From positions 64,685 through 122,234 of the forward strand of contig NZ_CADEFI010000002.1 of NCBI RefSeq assembly GCF_902826555.1: DNA of 57,550 bases, given 5' to 3'. Under the pieces are notes generated by a model. That model was not told where the DNA came from and searched no databases. It worked only from the letters and a program-made list of their open reading frames with translations. The stretch is from an uncultured Hyphomicrobium sp. Lineage in GTDB: Bacteria > Pseudomonadota > Alphaproteobacteria > Rhizobiales > Hyphomicrobiaceae. Shown in pieces: positions 6,584 through 15,119 of this stretch. The translations under genes and the position numbers were made by a program. The first letter of the stretch is position 1; each line of letters starts with the position of its first letter.

Positions 6584-9436
6584 TCAGCCGAATGCCCCCC
6601 AATGATGCGAAATGCCGGTGCCGATTTCGCGCACGAGCTCGTAGGCCTGCTCCATCGGTTCCAGGATCTCGGTCTCGATACGGCCGTAGTCGTCGATGCC
6701 CTTCGGCAGATACGTGGCCTGCTCGACGAACTGCCCGTCGTCGCGGGGATCGTCCACACGCCGCGGGAACGCCTGGCGCATCACCTGGAGCACTTCTGGA
6801 ATTTCGAGGCTCAACGCTTTGCGTACGATCTCGGCGTGCGTCACCTCGTTGGTCGGCGTAAAGCGCGGCAGCTGCGCCGTGAGGATGAAAAGGCGCATGA
6901 TCAGCGCGGCTCGGATCGCCTGCAGAAGGTCGAGCTCCAGCCGGTGATCGTCCGGGATCTTGCCGCCTTCGAGCCCGATTTCTTCCAGGATGCCGTGCAG
7001 CTCGATGGCGTCGAGCCGGAGGTAGTGCGCGAGTCCGGTGATCTTCCCCGCCCGGTCATCGTCCAAGAGTTGCTCGGCCAGGAATTTGAAGGCGCTGTCG
7101 AGGTGCTGCTCCCGCGCCCAGGAGGCGCGCTGGGCCCAGAAACCCGCATCGAAGATCACGGCGTTGGCGCCAACCGCATTGAGGCTCGAAAGCTGCTTGG
7201 CGCGCGCGATCATCTCGATCAGCGGCCGGAGACGCTGCGATTGCTTGGCCATCTCGACGAACCTCTCGCGCTCGCTGCCGACGGCTGCCCCGAGCCCCGC
7301 CACAACGTTCGCCACATAGCCGAACTGCTGCAGAATGGCGTTGTTCGGGATCGCACGCATGCGCGCCGGGTCACCACGGTCGGAATGATGGTCGCCCTGC
7401 CGCTTCACCGGACGCGAGCCGGTCTTGAACAGGAGGTTGGCGCCGAATGCGCCGAGCAGCGCCCGATAGCCGGGGTGAGCGAACAGCTCCTGCTGGTAGT
7501 CGCGCAGCCGGAGCTGGAAGTCGAGCGCCAGGTTGGTGTCGGTATAGAACGGGTCTTCGCCCTCGCCGGGATCCTTTCCGCTCATGATGATCGTCGCCAG
7601 CGCGCGCTGCGCGAACTCACGGTTGGCGAAGAAGAGATATCCGTCGCCGCCCTGGAAGCTGGTCTCGTGCTTGACGGGCAGGTTGTGCTGGAAGAAGCGC
7701 CAGCGCGACTCGCCGGGGAACACGTAGCGCAGCCGGCGCCGCAGCGGTCCCGGGTGCGCGCCGCGGCCCATGCTCTCGCCGTGCGTGGAGAAGATCAGCG
7801 TTTCGACGTTCTTGAGCTTGGCCTTGCGGACGACTTCCGCGAGTCCGTGATGCAGACGTTCGTGCGCGAGGCCGGCCGCGATCTGCCCGATGAAGCGTCC
7901 GGCGTCCGAATAACCGGTCTGTACGGCCAGCCGGCCGCGCTTCGTCACATAGTCGCGGTAAGCCTTCTCCGCCAGCAGCCGTTCGACAAGACGCGGCCCG
8001 GTCTCGAGCGCCGCCGGCGTCTCGAACAGAGGCGACACGTCGACGATCTCCGAGACCCCGAACAACTTGGCAAAGTAGACAGCGATCAGGATTGTGGCCG
8101 GGCTCTCGCACTCGGCGATGAGGTAGCGGATCGGCGTGTCGCGGTCGATGTGCTTGGCGATCTGCGCCGCGAGCGCGAACTGGCGGATGGCGGTCGCATT
8201 CTCGAGGTCGAGCGTCTCGAAGTTGACGGTTTCAGGTTTGACGCTGTGGATCATGTCCACGATGCGCGCCAGCGCCTGCCGTTCCGTGAGATCGCGCGTC
8301 CACCTTTCGTGCACGAAGGCTCGGAAGGCGTTGTTGATCTGCACGGCGTTGACACGGACGTGAATGTGGCTCATGCCGAGCCCGGTCGCGCGCAAAAGCC
8401 CGGCCAGCGACGCCACGGCGATTTTTGCCTTCGTGGTCGGCGCGGCACCGCCGACCTGCTCCAGGAGCGCGAGGATCGGCTCGGCGCTGACCAGGTTGTG
8501 CCCGTCGCCCTGAGTAATGATGTTGGCCGCCTGCGCCAGCGTGAATCCGTCCTTGCCGACGCTCTCCAGTGCTTTCACGTGCGCTTCCGCGGCGGCGATC
8601 GCGAGATCGAGCTTGCCGGTGAGCTGACGCGAAAGCTTGAGCATCTCCGCGCCGTCGCCAAGTACGGGCTTGAGTGCGAGGAAACGTTCCCGGATGTCCG
8701 CCAGTGCCGCCATCTTCTCTTTGAGGCGCACGACGAACGAGAACGTCCATTTGATGTCGGTGCGCCCGTCGAGGTCGTATCCGACCCACGATGCGAAAGT
8801 GGCAAGCTGTGGATCGGCCTTGAACGCGCGATCGCCGAACGTCGAGTGCGCAGCGGCGAAGAAATCGGTGAGCACATCCGCGTAGGCGTCGCGCAGGTTG
8901 CGGATCGCGCTCTGCACACGGCGGTGCTCGTAGTCGAGCGTGAGGCTCGGATCGGGCCGGTGCGGAAGCTCGATCGTCTGTCCCTTGGCCGTTCCCGAAA
9001 CGGCGATCTCGGCCATCCGGTTCGAGAGCGCTTCGGAAAGCCCGAATGTAGGATGGGCTGTGAAGACGATGCCGTTGCGTGCCCGCGCGAACCGCGCCTT
9101 GAACGCATCGAAATCGTTGGGATCGATTCCCGCGATCTCCCGGGCGATGAACTCGGAGAACTCCTTCCGCGTCGCTTTCTCGCTCTCGACGCCGATCTGC
9201 TCCTTGAGCACCAGCGCGCGATGCACGCAGGCGCTGTCCATCAGGCGCGTCGCCAGCGATTTGAGATCGCTGAAGGTGATCTCTCCCGCTTCGAGACGCC
9301 GCGACAGGTCGAACGCCACGTTGACGATCGGATTGAGCGCCGGCTGGTCAGGAATTTGTGCGCGAAGGGCTTTGAGTTCGGCGCGGAGCGCCTTCTCGTC
9401 GAGCTTCGTGCTGCCAGGGGACAGCATCTTGTTCAT
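6584..9436 (-). CDS. ppc: Phosphoenolpyruvate carboxylase
   Basis: 950 aa from the ATG at 9436, chosen for the GAGGAGACAAAG ribosome site directly upstream; an in-frame ATG 13 codons earlier has none. It carboxylates PEP to oxaloacetate, the CO2-fixing step of the serine cycle. VFTAHPTFGLSE holds the catalytic His. A GYSDAGRFIGQIAAG loop replaces the usual GYSDSxKDxG, and GSRPVKRQ matches the conserved Arg/Lys loop. The C-terminus (SHHWGAFG) differs from the standard QNTG end, so this is the divergent methylotroph type and its regulation may differ from E. coli Ppc. It is the last gene of the sgaA-mclA-mtkA-mtkB-ppc run. Confidence 0.95.
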   Translation of the reverse strand: MNKMLSPGSTKLDEKALRAELKALRAQIPDQPALNPIVNVAFDLSRRLEAGEITFSDLKSLATRLMDSACVHRALVLKEQIGVESEKATRKEFSEFIAREIAGIDPNDFDAFKARFARARNGIVFTAHPTFGLSEALSNRMAEIAVSGTAKGQTIELPHRPDPSLTLDYEHRRVQSAIRNLRDAYADVLTDFFAAAHSTFGDRAFKADPQLATFASWVGYDLDGRTDIKWTFSFVVRLKEKMAALADIRERFLALKPVLGDGAEMLKLSRQLTGKLDLAIAAAEAHVKALESVGKDGFTLAQAANIITQGDGHNLVSAEPILALLEQVGGAAPTTKAKIAVASLAGLLRATGLGMSHIHVRVNAVQINNAFRAFVHERWTRDLTERQALARIVDMIHSVKPETVNFETLDLENATAIRQFALAAQIAKHIDRDTPIRYLIAECESPATILIAVYFAKLFGVSEIVDVSPLFETPAALETGPRLVERLLAEKAYRDYVTKRGRLAVQTGYSDAGRFIGQIAAGLAHERLHHGLAEVVRKAKLKNVETLIFSTHGESMGRGAHPGPLRRRLRYVFPGESRWRFFQHNLPVKHETSFQGGDGYLFFANREFAQRALATIIMSGKDPGEGEDPFYTDTNLALDFQLRLRDYQQELFAHPGYRALLGAFGANLLFKTGSRPVKRQGDHHSDRGDPARMRAIPNNAILQQFGYVANVVAGLGAAVGSERERFVEMAKQSQRLRPLIEMIARAKQLSSLNAVGANAVIFDAGFWAQRASWAREQHLDSAFKFLAEQLLDDDRAGKITGLAHYLRLDAIELHGILEEIGLEGGKIPDDHRLELDLLQAIRAALIMRLFILTAQLPRFTPTNEVTHAEIVRKALSLEIPEVLQVMRQAFPRRVDDPRDDGQFVEQATYLPKGIDDYGRIETEILEPMEQAYELVREIGTGISHHWGAFG

Positions 9437-9453
9437 CTTTGTCTCCTCAACCA

Positions 9454-9468
9454 CCCCGAAATTCGGGG
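9454..9468 (-). promoter_or_regulatory. Quasi-palindrome in the ppc leader
   Basis: CCCCGAA (9454-9460) and TTCGGGG (9462-9468) are perfect complements around one base, 17 bases upstream of the ppc start and next to its ribosome site. In RNA this would be a 5-bp stem with a 5-nt loop abutting the Shine-Dalgarno sequence. As DNA it could be an operator. Role inferred only. Confidence 0.4.
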
Positions 9469-9500
9469 CTCGCACAATGAGTCCCAGGCAGAAAGAGGGG

Positions 9501-9524
9501 CCCGGCGGCCGTGAGACCGCCGGG
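9501..9524 (-). terminator. Intercistronic hairpin between mtkB and ppc
   Basis: CCCGGCGG (9501-9508) and CCGCCGGG (9517-9524) form a perfect 8-bp stem with an 8-nt loop. Read leftward, the transcript continues CCCCTCTTTCT, a pyrimidine-rich tract. It may act as an attenuator or partial terminator that lowers ppc expression relative to mtkAB, or as an mRNA-stability hairpin. Confidence 0.5.
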
Positions 9525-9572
9525 TCGTCGGGTCGGACCTGCCATCGGGTGCAGGGCCAAGCCCGGACCTAG

Positions 9573-9645
9573 AGTGCTTCCTGGAATTCAGCTCTCCGGA
9601 GCCGTTGCGGGCCACGCAAGACACGGATCCGGAGAGGGAAGCACG
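9573..9645. repeat. Intergenic palindromic repeat, family 1 (copy 2)
   Basis: The outer arms GTGCTTCC (9574-9581) and GGAAGCAC (9637-9644) enclose the inner arms CTCTCCGGA (9592-9600) and TCCGGAGAG (9628-9636). All pairs are perfect. It lies in the 222-bp mtkB-ppc spacer. The outer arms match those of the copy at the left edge of the window, while the inside is different. Confidence 0.6.
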
Positions 9646-9658
9646 TCAAGCGAAGGAG

Positions 9659-10555
<897 letters not shown>

Positions 10556-10567
10556 TTGTTTTCCTCC

Positions 10568-11737
10568 TTACGCGGCTTTCTTGGCGGCCGAAACGGCCTT
10601 GTTTGCTGCGTCTGCCAGCGTCTCCGCGCTGATCATGGTGAGGCCGCTCTGATCGATGATCTTGCGGCCCTCTTCGACGTTGGTGCCGGCTAGGCGCACG
10701 ACGATCGGAATCTGAATGTCGAGCTCCTTGATGGCGTCGACGACGCCCTTCGCCACCCAGTCGCACCGGTTGATGCCGGCGAACACGTTGACGAGGATCG
10801 CCTTCACGTTCTTGTCGCGCAGCACTGCCTTGAACGACTTCGTCACGCGCTCGGGGCTCGCGCCGCCGCCGATGTCGAGGAAGTTCGCCGGCTCGCCGCC
10901 CGCGAGCTTGATCATGTCGAGCGTTGCCATTGCCAGGCCCGCGCCGTTCACGATGCAGCCGATGTCTCCGTCGAGTCCGACATAGGAAAGACCGCGATCG
11001 TTGGCGTAGGTCTCGCGCGGATCCTCCTGGCTCTTGTCGCGCAGCTCGGCGATTTGCGGACGGCGGAACAGCGCGTTCTCGTCGAAGCTCATCTTGGCGT
11101 CGAGCGCGACGACGGTCTTCTGCTTGGTGATGACCAGCGGGTTGATCTCGAGCATGGAGGCATCGAGATCGCGGAAAGCGCGATAGCAGCCGAGGATGAC
11201 GCGCTCGAGCTTGCCGATGATCTCGGGATCGGCGCCGAGCCCGAAAGCCACCTCGCGGGCCTGGAACGCCTGCATGCCCACCGCGGGATCGACCTGCACT
11301 TTGATGATGGTGTCGGGCTGGCTGTGCGAGATCTCTTCGATGTCCATGCCGCCCGCTGCCGACGAGACGACGACGATACGCTCGGCTGCGCGGTCCATCA
11401 CGAAGGAGAGGTAGATCTCCTTGTCGATGTCGGTCGCTTCCTCGATGTAGAGGCGCGACACGAGCTTGCCCGCGGGGCCGGTCTGGATGGTGACCAGCTT
11501 CTTGCCGAGCAGGCCTTCGGATGCGGCCTCGACTTCGCTCTCCTGGCTGCAGACCTTGATGCCGCCGGCTTTGCCGCGGGCACCCGAGTGGACCTGCGCC
11601 TTGACCACCCAGCGTGCGCCGCCGAGCTCATGCGCCCGGTAAACGGCCTGCTCCGGGCTGTAGGCGAGCCCGCCGCGCGGGACAGGCACGCCGAACTTCG
11701 CGAGAAGCTCCTTCGCCTGGTACTCGTGAATGTCCAT
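10568..11737 (-). CDS. mtkA: Malate--CoA ligase (malate thiokinase) beta subunit
   Basis: 389 aa ATP-grasp protein related to SucC, starting [20 protein letters not shown]. The ATP-grasp fold covers about 1-240 and the CoA-ligase domain follows, with the conserved [18 protein letters not shown] and [10 protein letters not shown] motifs. It activates malate to malyl-CoA with MtkB. The start has AGGAGG-like bases upstream (GGTCC/AAGGAGG in the leader). It sits between mclA (42 bp upstream) and mtkB. Succinate activation as a side reaction cannot be excluded from sequence. Confidence 0.93.
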
Positions 11738-11779
11738 TTTGGACCTCCTTGGGGGGGAACTGTTTCCTGTCGCTTCTTC

Positions 11780-12736
11780 TTATTTCGCGCGTGCGGCTTC
11801 GCCGGCCTTGATCGACGCGGCGGTGGCCAGGATGTGGTTGGCCATCTTTTCCGAAGCGGCGTCGATCATCTTGCCGTCGAGCGACGCGGCGCCCTTGCCC
11901 TGCGCGGCGGCTTCCTTGAGAGCAACCAGGATGCGCTCGGCCTTGGTGACCTCGGCCGCCGTCGGCGAGTAGATCTCGTTGGCGAGCTCGATCTGCGAAG
12001 GATGGATCGCCCACTTGCCTTCCATGCCGAGCGCGGCGCCGCGACGGCAGGCGGCCTTGTAGCCGTCCGGATCGTCGATGCCGCCGAACGGGCCGTCGAT
12101 GGGACGCAGGCCGAACGCACGGCAGGCGACCGTCATGCGCGACAGCGGGAAGTGCCACTGGTCGCCCGGATAGTCGGGGTTGAGGCCGCCGATGACGACG
12201 GTGCGCGCCTTGTTGAAGGCCGAGTAGTCGGCGACGCCGAAGTGCATCGACTCGAGTCGGCTGTTGGCGGAGGCGATGGCTTCCACGTTCGCCATGCCGA
12301 GCGGCGTCTCGATCAGCGCTTCCATGCCGATCTTGTGCGGAAGACCCTTCGCGACCTCAATCTGGCTGACGATCGTCTCGACAGTGTAGACGTCGGCAGG
12401 CACGCCCACCTTCGGCACCAGGATGGTATCGAGCTTCGAGCCCGCCTGCTCCACGATGTCGACCACGTCGCGATACATGTAATGCGTGTCGAGGCCGTTG
12501 ATGCGCACCGACACGCTCTTGCCGGCGCCCTTCCAGTCGAGGTCGTTTAGCGCCTGGATGATGTTCTTGCGGGCCTGCTCCTTGTCCGGCGGAGCAACGG
12601 CATCCTCGCAATCGAGGAACACATAGTCGGCGGCGCTCTTGTGGGCGCGGTCGATCATCGTCGGATTGGAGCCGGGGACGGCCAGGTACGAGCGCTGCAG
12701 GCGCTGCTTGCGGATCGGATAAAGGGTGTAGCTCAT
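11780..12736 (-). CDS. mclA: L-malyl-CoA/beta-methylmalyl-CoA lyase
   Basis: 318 aa CitE-like TIM barrel. It splits malyl-CoA to acetyl-CoA and glyoxylate, closing the serine cycle. Visible motifs are RSYLAVPGSNPTMI (CoA contact), DCEDAVAP (metal/acid site), VRING with the catalytic Arg, ETPLGMANVEAIA with the metal-binding Glu, HFGVADYSA and GKWAIHPSQI. In the well-known Methylorubrum extorquens layout mclA follows ppc; here it sits between sgaA and mtkA. Confidence 0.95.
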   Translation of the reverse strand: MSYTLYPIRKQRLQRSYLAVPGSNPTMIDRAHKSAADYVFLDCEDAVAPPDKEQARKNIIQALNDLDWKGAGKSVSVRINGLDTHYMYRDVVDIVEQAGSKLDTILVPKVGVPADVYTVETIVSQIEVAKGLPHKIGMEALIETPLGMANVEAIASANSRLESMHFGVADYSAFNKARTVVIGGLNPDYPGDQWHFPLSRMTVACRAFGLRPIDGPFGGIDDPDGYKAACRRGAALGMEGKWAIHPSQIELANEIYSPTAAEVTKAERILVALKEAAAQGKGAASLDGKMIDAASEKMANHILATAASIKAGEAARAK

Positions 12737-12863: not shown

Positions 12864-14069
12864 CTATGCGGCTTTGGAAAGCGCGGGCTTTGTCGCCGTC
12901 TTGCTGAAGTACTCAGCCGCGGCGCCGGTGCCCGAGCCGAACTTGATCGGCACGCCGCAATCCTTGAGCGCCATTTCGACGTTGAACAGCACGCCGCCGA
13001 TCATGCCCTCGTCGAGGGCGCCGAGGTGACCGATGCGGAACACCTTGCCGGCGACCTTGTTGAGGCCGGTTCCGAGCGAGGTGTTGTAGCGGTAGTACGC
13101 GGTCTTCAGAACGTTGTTGGCATCGATGCCCTCGGGCACGACGATGGCGGACACCGTGTCGGAATGCCACTTTGGCTCCTTCGCGCAGAGCTTGAGGCCC
13201 CAGGCATCGACCGCGGCGCGCACGCCGGAGGCAAGGCGCGTGTGGCGCGCGATGACGTTGTCGAGGCCTTCGGCGAAGATGAGGTCGATGGATGCGCGCA
13301 GGCCACGGATGAGCTGCGTGGCCGGAGTATACGGGAAGTAGCCAAGATCGTTGGTCTTGATCATGTCTTCCCAGGAGAAGAAGCAACGGTTCATGCGGCC
13401 GTTGAGGCTCTTGTTGGCGTCGAGCGCCTTCTGCGACACGGCCAGGATGCCAAGGCCGGTTGGCAGCATGAAGCCCTTCTGCGAGCCGGAGACGCAAGCG
13501 TCAACGCCCCACTCGCCCATGCGCATGTCGAGCGAGCCGACCGACGAGACGCCGTCGACGAACAGCAGTGCAGGGTGCTTGGCGGCGTCGAGTGCCTTGC
13601 GCACGCCGGCGATGTCGGAGGACACGCCCGTTGCCGTCTCGTTGTGCGTGGCGAAGACGGCCTTGATCTCGTGGTTCTTGTCCTTGGCCAGGATGTCGGC
13701 GTACTTCTCGAGCGGAACGCCCGTGCCCCACTCTTCGTCACAAAGCTCGACCTTGAGACCGAGACGCTCGGCCATATCGACCCAGAGCAGCGAGAACTGG
13801 CCGAAGCGGCTCATCAGAACCTTGTCGCCGACGGCGAGCGTGTTGGTGATCGCCGATTCCCAGGCGCCGGTGCCCGACGACGGAAAGATGAAAACGCGGC
13901 CGTCCTTCTGCTTGAAGACCTTCTTGAGGTCCTCGAAGATCGGGAGCGTGAATTTGGGGAACTCGGGGCTGCGCATGTCCTCCATGGGGAGGTTCATTGC
14001 CATGCGAACGGCGTCCGGAATATTGGTCGGGCCAGGGATGAACAGGTGCGGCTTCACCATCGTAGTCAT
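12864..14069 (-). CDS. sgaA: Serine--glyoxylate aminotransferase
   Basis: 401 aa PLP enzyme from the ATG at 14069, which has GGAGGAGA upstream; the open frame extends 14 codons further without a ribosome site. It transfers the amino group of serine to glyoxylate, giving hydroxypyruvate and glycine, a defining serine-cycle step. Fold-type I features are SSGTGAWE (64-71), THNETATG (141-148), VDGVSSVGS (171-179) and the Schiff-base lysine in SGSQKGF (Lys198). It is first in the sgaA-mclA-mtkA-mtkB-ppc run and has a long, dyad-rich upstream region. Confidence 0.95.
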   Translation of the reverse strand: MTTMVKPHLFIPGPTNIPDAVRMAMNLPMEDMRSPEFPKFTLPIFEDLKKVFKQKDGRVFIFPSSGTGAWESAITNTLAVGDKVLMSRFGQFSLLWVDMAERLGLKVELCDEEWGTGVPLEKYADILAKDKNHEIKAVFATHNETATGVSSDIAGVRKALDAAKHPALLFVDGVSSVGSLDMRMGEWGVDACVSGSQKGFMLPTGLGILAVSQKALDANKSLNGRMNRCFFSWEDMIKTNDLGYFPYTPATQLIRGLRASIDLIFAEGLDNVIARHTRLASGVRAAVDAWGLKLCAKEPKWHSDTVSAIVVPEGIDANNVLKTAYYRYNTSLGTGLNKVAGKVFRIGHLGALDEGMIGGVLFNVEMALKDCGVPIKFGSGTGAAAEYFSKTATKPALSKAA

Positions 14070-14240
14070 CTGCGTCTCCTCCAGTGTGGCGTTTCGAGTT
14101 TCTTGCACCAACCTTAGCGTCTAGTGCGCCAAGCGTCAGCTCAACAGCCGCGGCGTCCGGCAAAAAGGCAGAGCCTCGTGCGTGGAGCCGCGCGTTTGCC
14201 GACTGTTGTGATCGCCCTCGGACAGGATCGGTTGATGTGA

Positions 14241-14266
14241 GAATTGAACGCCTTTCGGTTCAATTC
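14241..14266. promoter_or_regulatory. Perfect inverted repeat upstream of sgaA (candidate operator)
   Basis: GAATTGAAC (14241-14249) and GTTCAATTC (14258-14266) are perfect 9-bp arms around 8 bases, 172 bp before the sgaA start. AT-rich arms in a GC-rich gap, with arm centres about 17 bp apart, fit a dimeric regulator such as a LysR- or LuxR-type protein. Which protein binds is unknown. Part of one arm recurs ahead of mclA. Confidence 0.55.
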
Positions 14267-14341
14267 GTAACATCTTCCTAACCGTGCGCAATACCCGGTT
14301 GGGCGACGGCACAAATCTCTTGGGTAGGCTTATGGGCGGTG

Positions 14342-14399
14342 TTTGCCGACCTGGGAATTGCCCAGTTGGGTAGTTTCTGCCTACCCACCCTGCGGCAAA
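14342..14399 (-). ncRNA. Three-way-junction-like structured element upstream of sgaA
   Basis: Three perfectly paired helices nest in 58 bases. The closing stem is TTTGCCG (14342-14348) with CGGCAAA (14393-14399). Inside are hairpin CTGGG (14351-14355)/CCCAG (14361-14365) and hairpin TGGGTAG (14367-14373)/CTACCCA (14381-14387). A further TGGGTAG copy lies at 14321-14327. It could be a structured 5' leader of sgaA, a 3' end of the upstream regulator mRNA, or a cluster of protein sites in DNA. No known RNA family was recognised. Confidence 0.4.
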
Positions 14400-14486: not shown

Positions 14487-15119
14487 CTAGCGCATTTCGC
14501 GCTGAGCCTGCTGCGTCATGAACAGTGCCACCGCCATGGCGCGATTGTTGACGTTGAGCTTATCGTAGAGGTTCTTCAAGTGGTATTTCACTGTGTTTCT
14601 TGAAATACCGATGCGCGCTGCAATTTGCAGGTTCGACCATCCGTCCGCAAGAGCCGCGAGCAATTCCCGCTCGCGCACCGTGAGCACGTCCAGCGGATCC
14701 TTGCTTGCCGCATCCATGTCTACGTAGGGAAACGAGACGCGTCCGTGCGACACCGACGAGATCGTCTCGAGCAAGACCTCCGGCTCGTCGCTTTTCGACA
14801 TGAAGCCCCAGGCACCCGCCTTGATCGTGCGCCGCAGCACATCCATGCCCGGCTCGCCCGTATAGACGATCGTGCGCACGTCGGAGCGCCTCTCCTTGAG
14901 GCCCGCCAGGACATCGCCGCCGGTCATGTCCGGCAACGACCAGCCGATGATCGCGATCTCGACCTTATGCGCCTCGATGAGCTCGAGGAAGGCAGATCCT
15001 GTAGACACGGCCGCCGTCACGGTGAATCGGCCGTCGCGCGCGATGATGTCGACAAGGCCCGTCCGGACGACGGGGTTCTTGTCGGCGATTGCAACGGTGC
15101 GGCGGATCTCTTTCGGCAT
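14487..15119 (-). CDS. LuxR/NarL-type response regulator with atypical receiver
   Basis: 210 aa. The receiver domain (about 5-125) is followed by a LuxR helix-turn-helix (about 145-205; LTVRERELLAALADG, NTVKYHLKNLYDKL). The site that normally holds the phosphorylated Asp is Gly59 (IAIIGWSLPDMTGG), and the acidic pair is reduced to D13-K14, while Thr87 and Lys109 remain. It therefore probably does not use normal Asp phosphorylation. It is upstream of and collinear with the sgaA operon, separated by the 417-bp dyad-rich gap, so regulation of C1 genes is a reasonable guess but unproven. Confidence 0.85.
   Translation of the reverse strand: MPKEIRRTVAIADKNPVVRTGLVDIIARDGRFTVTAAVSTGSAFLELIEAHKVEIAIIGWSLPDMTGGDVLAGLKERRSDVRTIVYTGEPGMDVLRRTIKAGAWGFMSKSDEPEVLLETISSVSHGRVSFPYVDMDAASKDPLDVLTVRERELLAALADGWSNLQIAARIGISRNTVKYHLKNLYDKLNVNNRAMAVALFMTQQAQREMR

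Follow-up and report, generated by a model that had tools for sequence, protein, structure and literature searches.

A probable activator-site array, rather than a leader RNA, at a folded element upstream of the sga serine-cycle operon in Hyphomicrobium

The element at 14342-14399 of the window, a 57,550-nt stretch of Hyphomicrobium DNA, is very probably the far end of an array of activator sites for the neighbouring pseudo-receiver regulator and not a leader RNA, as judged by sequence comparison. The array of DNA-binding sites would front the sga-mcl-mtkA-mtkB-ppc operon. To our knowledge, serine-cycle control has been worked out mainly in Methylobacterium (QscR). Methanol-using Hyphomicrobium and serine-cycle rhizobia would thereby gain a candidate regulator, a defined predicted operator, and a short target list. 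The features of the region are given in Table 1.

Table 1 Features of the sga region in the window
Feature	Position	Strand	Remarks
Pseudo-receiver NarL/LuxR-type regulator gene, probable ScyR-type	14487..15119	-	Upstream of sga, co-oriented
Element	14342-14399	.	Three perfect helices; one G-half, one dyad, non-conserved closing stem
Half-site GGGTAG, first of array	14381..14386	-	In 8/8 congeneric genomes
16-bp dyad CTACCC-AACT-GGGCAA	14358..14373	-	6-4-6 layout also at other sga, eno, glyA, ftcD upstreams
Half-dyad CTACCC-AAGA-GATTTG	14312..14327	-	46 bp from previous dyad (CTACCC at -258 vs -304 from ATG)
Promoter-proximal dyad TCGCCC-AACC-GGGTAT	14291..14306	-	Abuts -35 box
Predicted distal sga promoter TTGCGC-N17-ACGAAT	14263..14291	-	Inferred start near 14256
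Predicted proximal sga promoter CTGACG-N17-TAAGGT	14111..14139	-	Predicted start near 14104; similar boxes in 8/8 congeneric upstreams
sgaA, serine-glyoxylate aminotransferase, first operon gene	12864..14069	-	Name from initial annotation and gene order; no curated model above cutoff
Operon remainder	6584..12736	-	Domains; names by family and order
mcl	11780-12736	-	Family and gene order
mtkA	10568-11737	-	Family and gene order
mtkB	9659-10555	-	Family and gene order
ppc	6584-9475	-	Family and gene order

On the strand read toward sga (14399-14342), a closing helix of 7 bp, TTTGCCG ... CGGCAAA, forms with no mismatch. Two inner helices are present on the same strand, TGGGTAG-N7-CTACCCA (7 bp) and CTGGG-N5-CCCAG (5 bp). 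The initial annotation had described these three perfect nested helices (a 7-bp closing stem with hairpins of 5 bp and 7 bp), and the description is exact. The fold energy is -25.3 kcal/mol for the sga-sense strand (z -2.95) and -24.2 kcal/mol for the opposite strand (z -2.74), with 1 of 200 shuffles as good in each case. When the 417-nt intergenic region was dinucleotide-shuffled 2000 times, 2 shuffles gave an equal or better nested three-helix set, which agrees with the earlier statement that such a set is rare by chance. The excess of helices over chance arises in part because the half-sites (GGGTAG and its complement) repeat. As annotated initially, the element lies between the regulator gene and sgaA and is read toward sgaA; both genes are on the minus strand, and the 417-nt gap ends at the sgaA ATG at 14069. 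Between positions 14050 and 14520, no terminator-like sites were found. An exact 10-nt direct repeat, GTTTGCCGAC, occurs at 14194-14203 and 14341-14350, with one copy within the non-conserved closing stem.

The initial annotation proposed two readings, a metabolite-sensing leader and a clustered binding region. Under the former, the sga transcript would carry a riboswitch or attenuator as a structured leader, with a three-way junction that senses glyoxylate, glycine, or a folate. The three perfect helices with fold z-scores of about -2.7 to -2.95 speak for it, and the co-orientation of regulator gene and sgaA makes a read-through transcript possible. Fold conservation and covariation were measured on eight congeneric sga upstream regions, including that of the window. 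Across these genomes, both inner hairpins have near-invariant arms, with pairing kept in 94.6% of cells for helix 2 and 82.5% for helix 3, which also fits a leader RNA. Against it, the closing stem pairs in only 54.7% of cells, and the window alone among the eight has the full 7-bp stem. The covariation of the whole structure is no better than in the controls, as 132 of 500 shuffles reach its score and the slid structure exceeds it. Pairs with a double change number 3 vs 2.1 in shuffled alignments (167 of 500 shuffles reach this value), and sliding the partners by +1 gives 4. RNAalifold drops the closing stem from the same eight-sequence alignment, and 0 of 13 pairs show double changes. Hence, compensatory changes in homologous upstream regions, which had been named earlier as the test, do not rise above the shuffled level in these eight sequences.

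Other evidence points in the same direction. Outside the genus, the hairpins are rearranged. An Rfam search of the element gave no family and two chance matches at E ≤ 5, the better one scoring 16.4 bits where the gathering score is 70; no RNA class had been recognised initially either. Both predicted promoters lie between the element and sgaA, so that an sga transcript would begin only past the element. In the Mesorhizobium group, the leader expected from the sga promoter register spans just 30-40 nt (by eye, among the best 80 of 301 matches), so that a leader RNA would hardly fit. Half-sites differ in number and order between loci, and similar half-sites are found at unlinked promoters. A leader RNA is thus very unlikely, and the hairpins are probably a by-product of facing half-sites. 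The part of the initial interpretation that stands is the binding cluster, given half-site arrays at sga, eno, mcl, in some genera glyA, and in individual genera or genomes folD and ftcD, and a regulator gene that accompanies sga; the metabolite-sensing RNA is not supported.

The predicted array was followed through the family. The search covered 99 family genomes, of which the 58 whose sga is at least 74% identical were taken. The unit would be the half-site GGGTAG, often paired as the 16-bp dyad CTACCC-N4-GGGTAG, with units roughly two helical turns apart or, in Mesorhizobium, as 13-bp direct repeats. Every Hyphomicrobiaceae locus with sufficient flanking sequence (52 of 52) has an exact GGGTAG or CTACCC no more than 360 nt from sga, in variable copy number and order. 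Two rows were dropped beforehand, namely, L001 as a duplicate of L002 and L057 as a 65% identical sga paralogue with neither regulator nor array in its 1500 nt. L027, L030, and L054 (210, 0, and 0 nt upstream) are outside the 52. The half-dyad CTACCC-AAGA-GATTTG is exact in seven of the eight genus genomes, with one base changed in G062.

The last dyad is predicted to abut the -35 box of the distal sga promoter. The corresponding pattern CC-N4-RRGTN-TTG, with a -35-like TTG, was found in 49 of 53 Hyphomicrobiaceae sga upstreams. The four misses are L007, L009, and L026, which have visible variants, and L027, which is counted within the 53 and has a short flank. At this predicted promoter, the TTG is in constant register, and a weak -10-like hexamer follows about 17 nt on. 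The proximal promoter-like pair CTG(A/G)CG-N17(19)-TAAnnT begins 67-72 nt before the ATG in all eight genus genomes, with a spacer of 17 in seven and 19 in one. Just 3' of the predicted distal promoter, a perfect 9-bp inverted repeat, GAATTGAAC-N8-GTTCAATTC, is seen at 14241-14266; its right arm GGCGTTCAATTC is common to several congeneric genomes. As to the first operon gene, sgaA scores 584.5 bits to the NCBIfam BhcA model (cutoff 650), and these two aminotransferases are easily confused.

The regulator encoded next to the array consists of Response_reg (PF00072, 61.4 bits) and GerE HTH (PF00196, 64.8 bits) domains, which fits the NarL/FixJ (LuxR-type) layout. The phospho-Asp position is occupied by Gly59 in the window protein, by Gly in each of the 56 Hyphomicrobiaceae copies, out of 57, that could be read there, and by Gly in 47 of 47 loci L377-L423 (among the best 80 of 301 matches). 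The acidic pair mostly reads AD(K/Q) or AER. The phospho-acceptor Asp together with the acidic pair of response regulators was not encountered in these copies. By its sequence, the regulator is, therefore, a pseudo-receiver with a receiver fold but without the catalytic Asp. The HTH recognition helix NTVKYHLKNLY is identical in all 57 Hyphomicrobiaceae copies and in all 47 loci L377-L423 (among the best 80 of 301 matches). Since the receiver lost its phospho-acceptor Asp, the regulator probably answers something other than a partner kinase. In a review, the way bacterial pseudo-receivers switch is called a mystery (PMC12632262), and the response regulators treated there likewise have a receiver fold lacking key phosphotransfer residues. 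The window case adds a predicted operator array and a metabolic regulon, and its receiver without phospho-acceptor makes the regulator a tractable case for how pseudo-receivers switch.

Wherever the flank suffices (52 of 52 loci), a NarL-type regulator gene is upstream of sga and co-oriented. The distance from match to match is 234-462 nt in 48 loci; three others have 656-697 nt, and the last has 2166 nt. The regulator was found in 56 of 58 sga genomes vs 0 of 34 without sga, and in 7 of the ten genomes of unclear sga status, which were counted apart; these co-occurrence counts are not phylogenetically independent, and 19 of the 39 regulator-less genomes were identified through absence among 63 matches. 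The two sga genomes without a regulator match are G016, where the contig ends, and G078.

QscR is of the LysR type and belongs to a protein family different from that of the window regulator. A true operator bound by such a QscR-like LysR activator or another different protein, with the neighbouring gene as a bystander, is an unlikely alternative to the pseudo-receiver as ligand. It draws on M. extorquens, whose serine cycle is activated by QscR according to a title cited in PMC9320726, and whose sga has distal and proximal promoters at 343-356 and 46 nt according to the same article. Activator control of the sga operon and a pair of distal and proximal sga promoters are shared with the prediction at the window. 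The co-occurrence of regulator and sga argues against another binder, as does the fact that both stay neighbours in Hyphomicrobiaceae and Mesorhizobium. The half-site also resembles NarL sites.

This resemblance extends to the protein, as the two-domain family is common to both and NarL (1a04) is the best solved relative of the window regulator (E 2.8e-27). The NarL operator layout is 7-2-7, instead of which the array has the spacing CTACCC-N4-GGGTAG. NarL/NarP sites are given as TACYYMT in PMC4886647. With that consensus, TACCC is common to both sites, and the half-site TACCC(A) agrees at 5-6 positions, whereas the dyad spacing differs. NarL and NarP are nitrate regulators, whereas the window regulator has no phospho-acceptor and has the serine cycle as its predicted target.

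Beyond the family, named genomes were scanned with the regulator alignment, and the best 80 of 301 matches were considered. Among these, the regulator occurs in Hyphomicrobium, Filomicrobium, Mesorhizobium, Aminobacter, Labrys, and others. It directly precedes sga in 28 of the 47 loci L377-L423 (26 Mesorhizobium, 1 Aminobacter, and 1 other bacterium, among the best 80 of 301 matches); the remaining 19 either stop short or are flanked by different genes. TACCC-N4-RGGTGT(T/G)G is present before sga in 28 of 28 of these Mesorhizobium-group loci. Each locus in this set from the best 80 of 301 matches has one to five copies of GGGTAR before sga (e.g., L382, L390, and L399), and neighbouring copies are 13 bp apart in 33 of 37 steps, mostly as direct repeats. 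The variation in copy number suggests repeat-number evolution of the operator.

The primary paper on scyR is reportedly that of Czarnecki et al. from 2017. A putative scyR, serine cycle regulator, is named for Paracoccus aminovorans and Aminobacter in a figure legend (PMC8235418). The window regulator is probably ScyR; we infer this identity because the P. aminovorans gene table does not print scyR. On the P. aminovorans plasmid, a response-regulator-type homologue, 39% identical to the window protein, is encoded at the expected place, between sga and the CoA ester lyase (mcl) gene. GGGTAG-N8-CCGCCC is found upstream of sga there. The P. aminovorans homologue (L424 8965-9609) keeps Asp at the phospho-acceptor position, whereas the Hyphomicrobiaceae and Mesorhizobium copies have Gly. 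In the portions available of the non-subscription literature on serine-cycle regulators of Hyphomicrobium, Mesorhizobium, and Paracoccus, we found no description of these sites and none of a ScyR operator or regulon.

A fixed rule, a dyad with ≤ 2 mismatches within 350 nt, was applied to the upstreams of eno, glyA, and folD. The eno dyad was found in 36 of 49 serine-cycle-sga genomes vs 1 of 32 without sga and 22 of 490 shuffles, a contrast for which Fisher p-values overstate independence because the control genomes differ in lineage from the sga genomes. For glyA, the respective numbers are 24/50, 0/20, and 22/500. At this threshold, serine-cycle genomes lack the dyad before eno in 13 of 49 cases and before glyA in 26 of 50. 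We dropped folD as a general target, as the dyad precedes it in 2 of 45 serine-cycle genomes (members of a single genus) vs 0 of 18 without sga and 10 of 450 shuffles. The eno sample comprised 90 of 95 genomes with a match (30 automatic loci and 60 chosen; fragments and weak paralogues were omitted, and upstreams < 300 nt were left out of the counts). For glyA, 87 of 91 were taken (three partial matches and, inadvertently, G070 were omitted), 7 of which could not be placed. The folD sample of 70 (two not placeable) had 30 automatic and 40 picked loci; the latter covered 20 of 28 sga genomes and 20 of roughly 33 controls and were not a random draw. In the genome of the window itself, an array with one mismatch is located 154 nt ahead of the eno start, and no dyad (≤ 2 mismatches) was seen upstream of glyA and folD. 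ORF 107-1783 on the minus strand of the window reads by eye as formate-tetrahydrofolate ligase (ftfL), which would feed the serine cycle; in the stretch searched upstream of it (1701-2250), there was no dyad at ≤ 2 mismatches.

The composite site could be placed in 22 of 58 eno upstreams and not in the other 36. In those 22, the mean match to a -10 box is best at offsets of 37-38 nt from the dyad start, with 2.59 and 2.73 of 6 positions against 0.3-2.1 elsewhere. This is the register observed at sga. In the same register, the -10 boxes are better at eno than at sga. If the boxes at sga and eno are promoters, transcription of these two unlinked genes starts downstream of the array.

What has been computed is the set of sites with their register, their occurrence at further serine-cycle genes, and their co-occurrence with the regulator; the events proposed from here on, i.e., binding, activation, signal, and transcription starts, are what we infer. 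The most likely ligand of the array would be the NarL/LuxR-type protein encoded next to it. Dimers of this regulator would occupy the array, and from the dyad next to the -35 box they would recruit RNA polymerase and switch on the sga operon and eno, as well as glyA in some genera. The regulator may respond to a metabolite, to a partner protein, or to its own abundance, rather than to a partner kinase. A broader proposal is speculative and, in our estimate, rather doubtful: a phosphorylation-independent pseudo-receiver activator might be the serine-cycle master switch across Hyphomicrobiales, polymerising on tandem dyad arrays of variable copy number (sga, eno, and glyA) and directly sensing a C1 or serine-cycle intermediate via its degenerate receiver.

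Palindromes are common in GC-rich intergenic DNA, and an incidental cluster of inverted repeats, or a mobile palindromic element without regulatory role, would also yield such helices. In exact-pattern searches of 103 family genomes, the dyad patterns alone were not enriched genome-wide vs a reversed-pattern control, as this explanation would have it; hence, our claim rests on the position-specific tests. Two observations make an incidental repeat extremely improbable. The 131-nt region containing the element is single-copy in its own genome (whole-element search), and conservation is position-specific at about 80 sga loci, with enrichment at eno and glyA. For the activator-site array, we also read 26 pattern loci by ORF, picked mostly from loci that had not yet been recognised as sga. 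Sixteen adjoin sga (2), eno (4), glyA (5), mcl (3), or folD (2), and ten are not beside serine-cycle genes. In the congener G021, the gene for ftcD (glutamate formimidoyltransferase) has three dyads in a row upstream (L103 1440-1560); this ftcD was not found in the other seven genus genomes at E 1e-40. In genus g25, three genomes also have CTACCC-N4-GGGTAG palindromes next to ilvC (L115, L116, and L121, near 1501).
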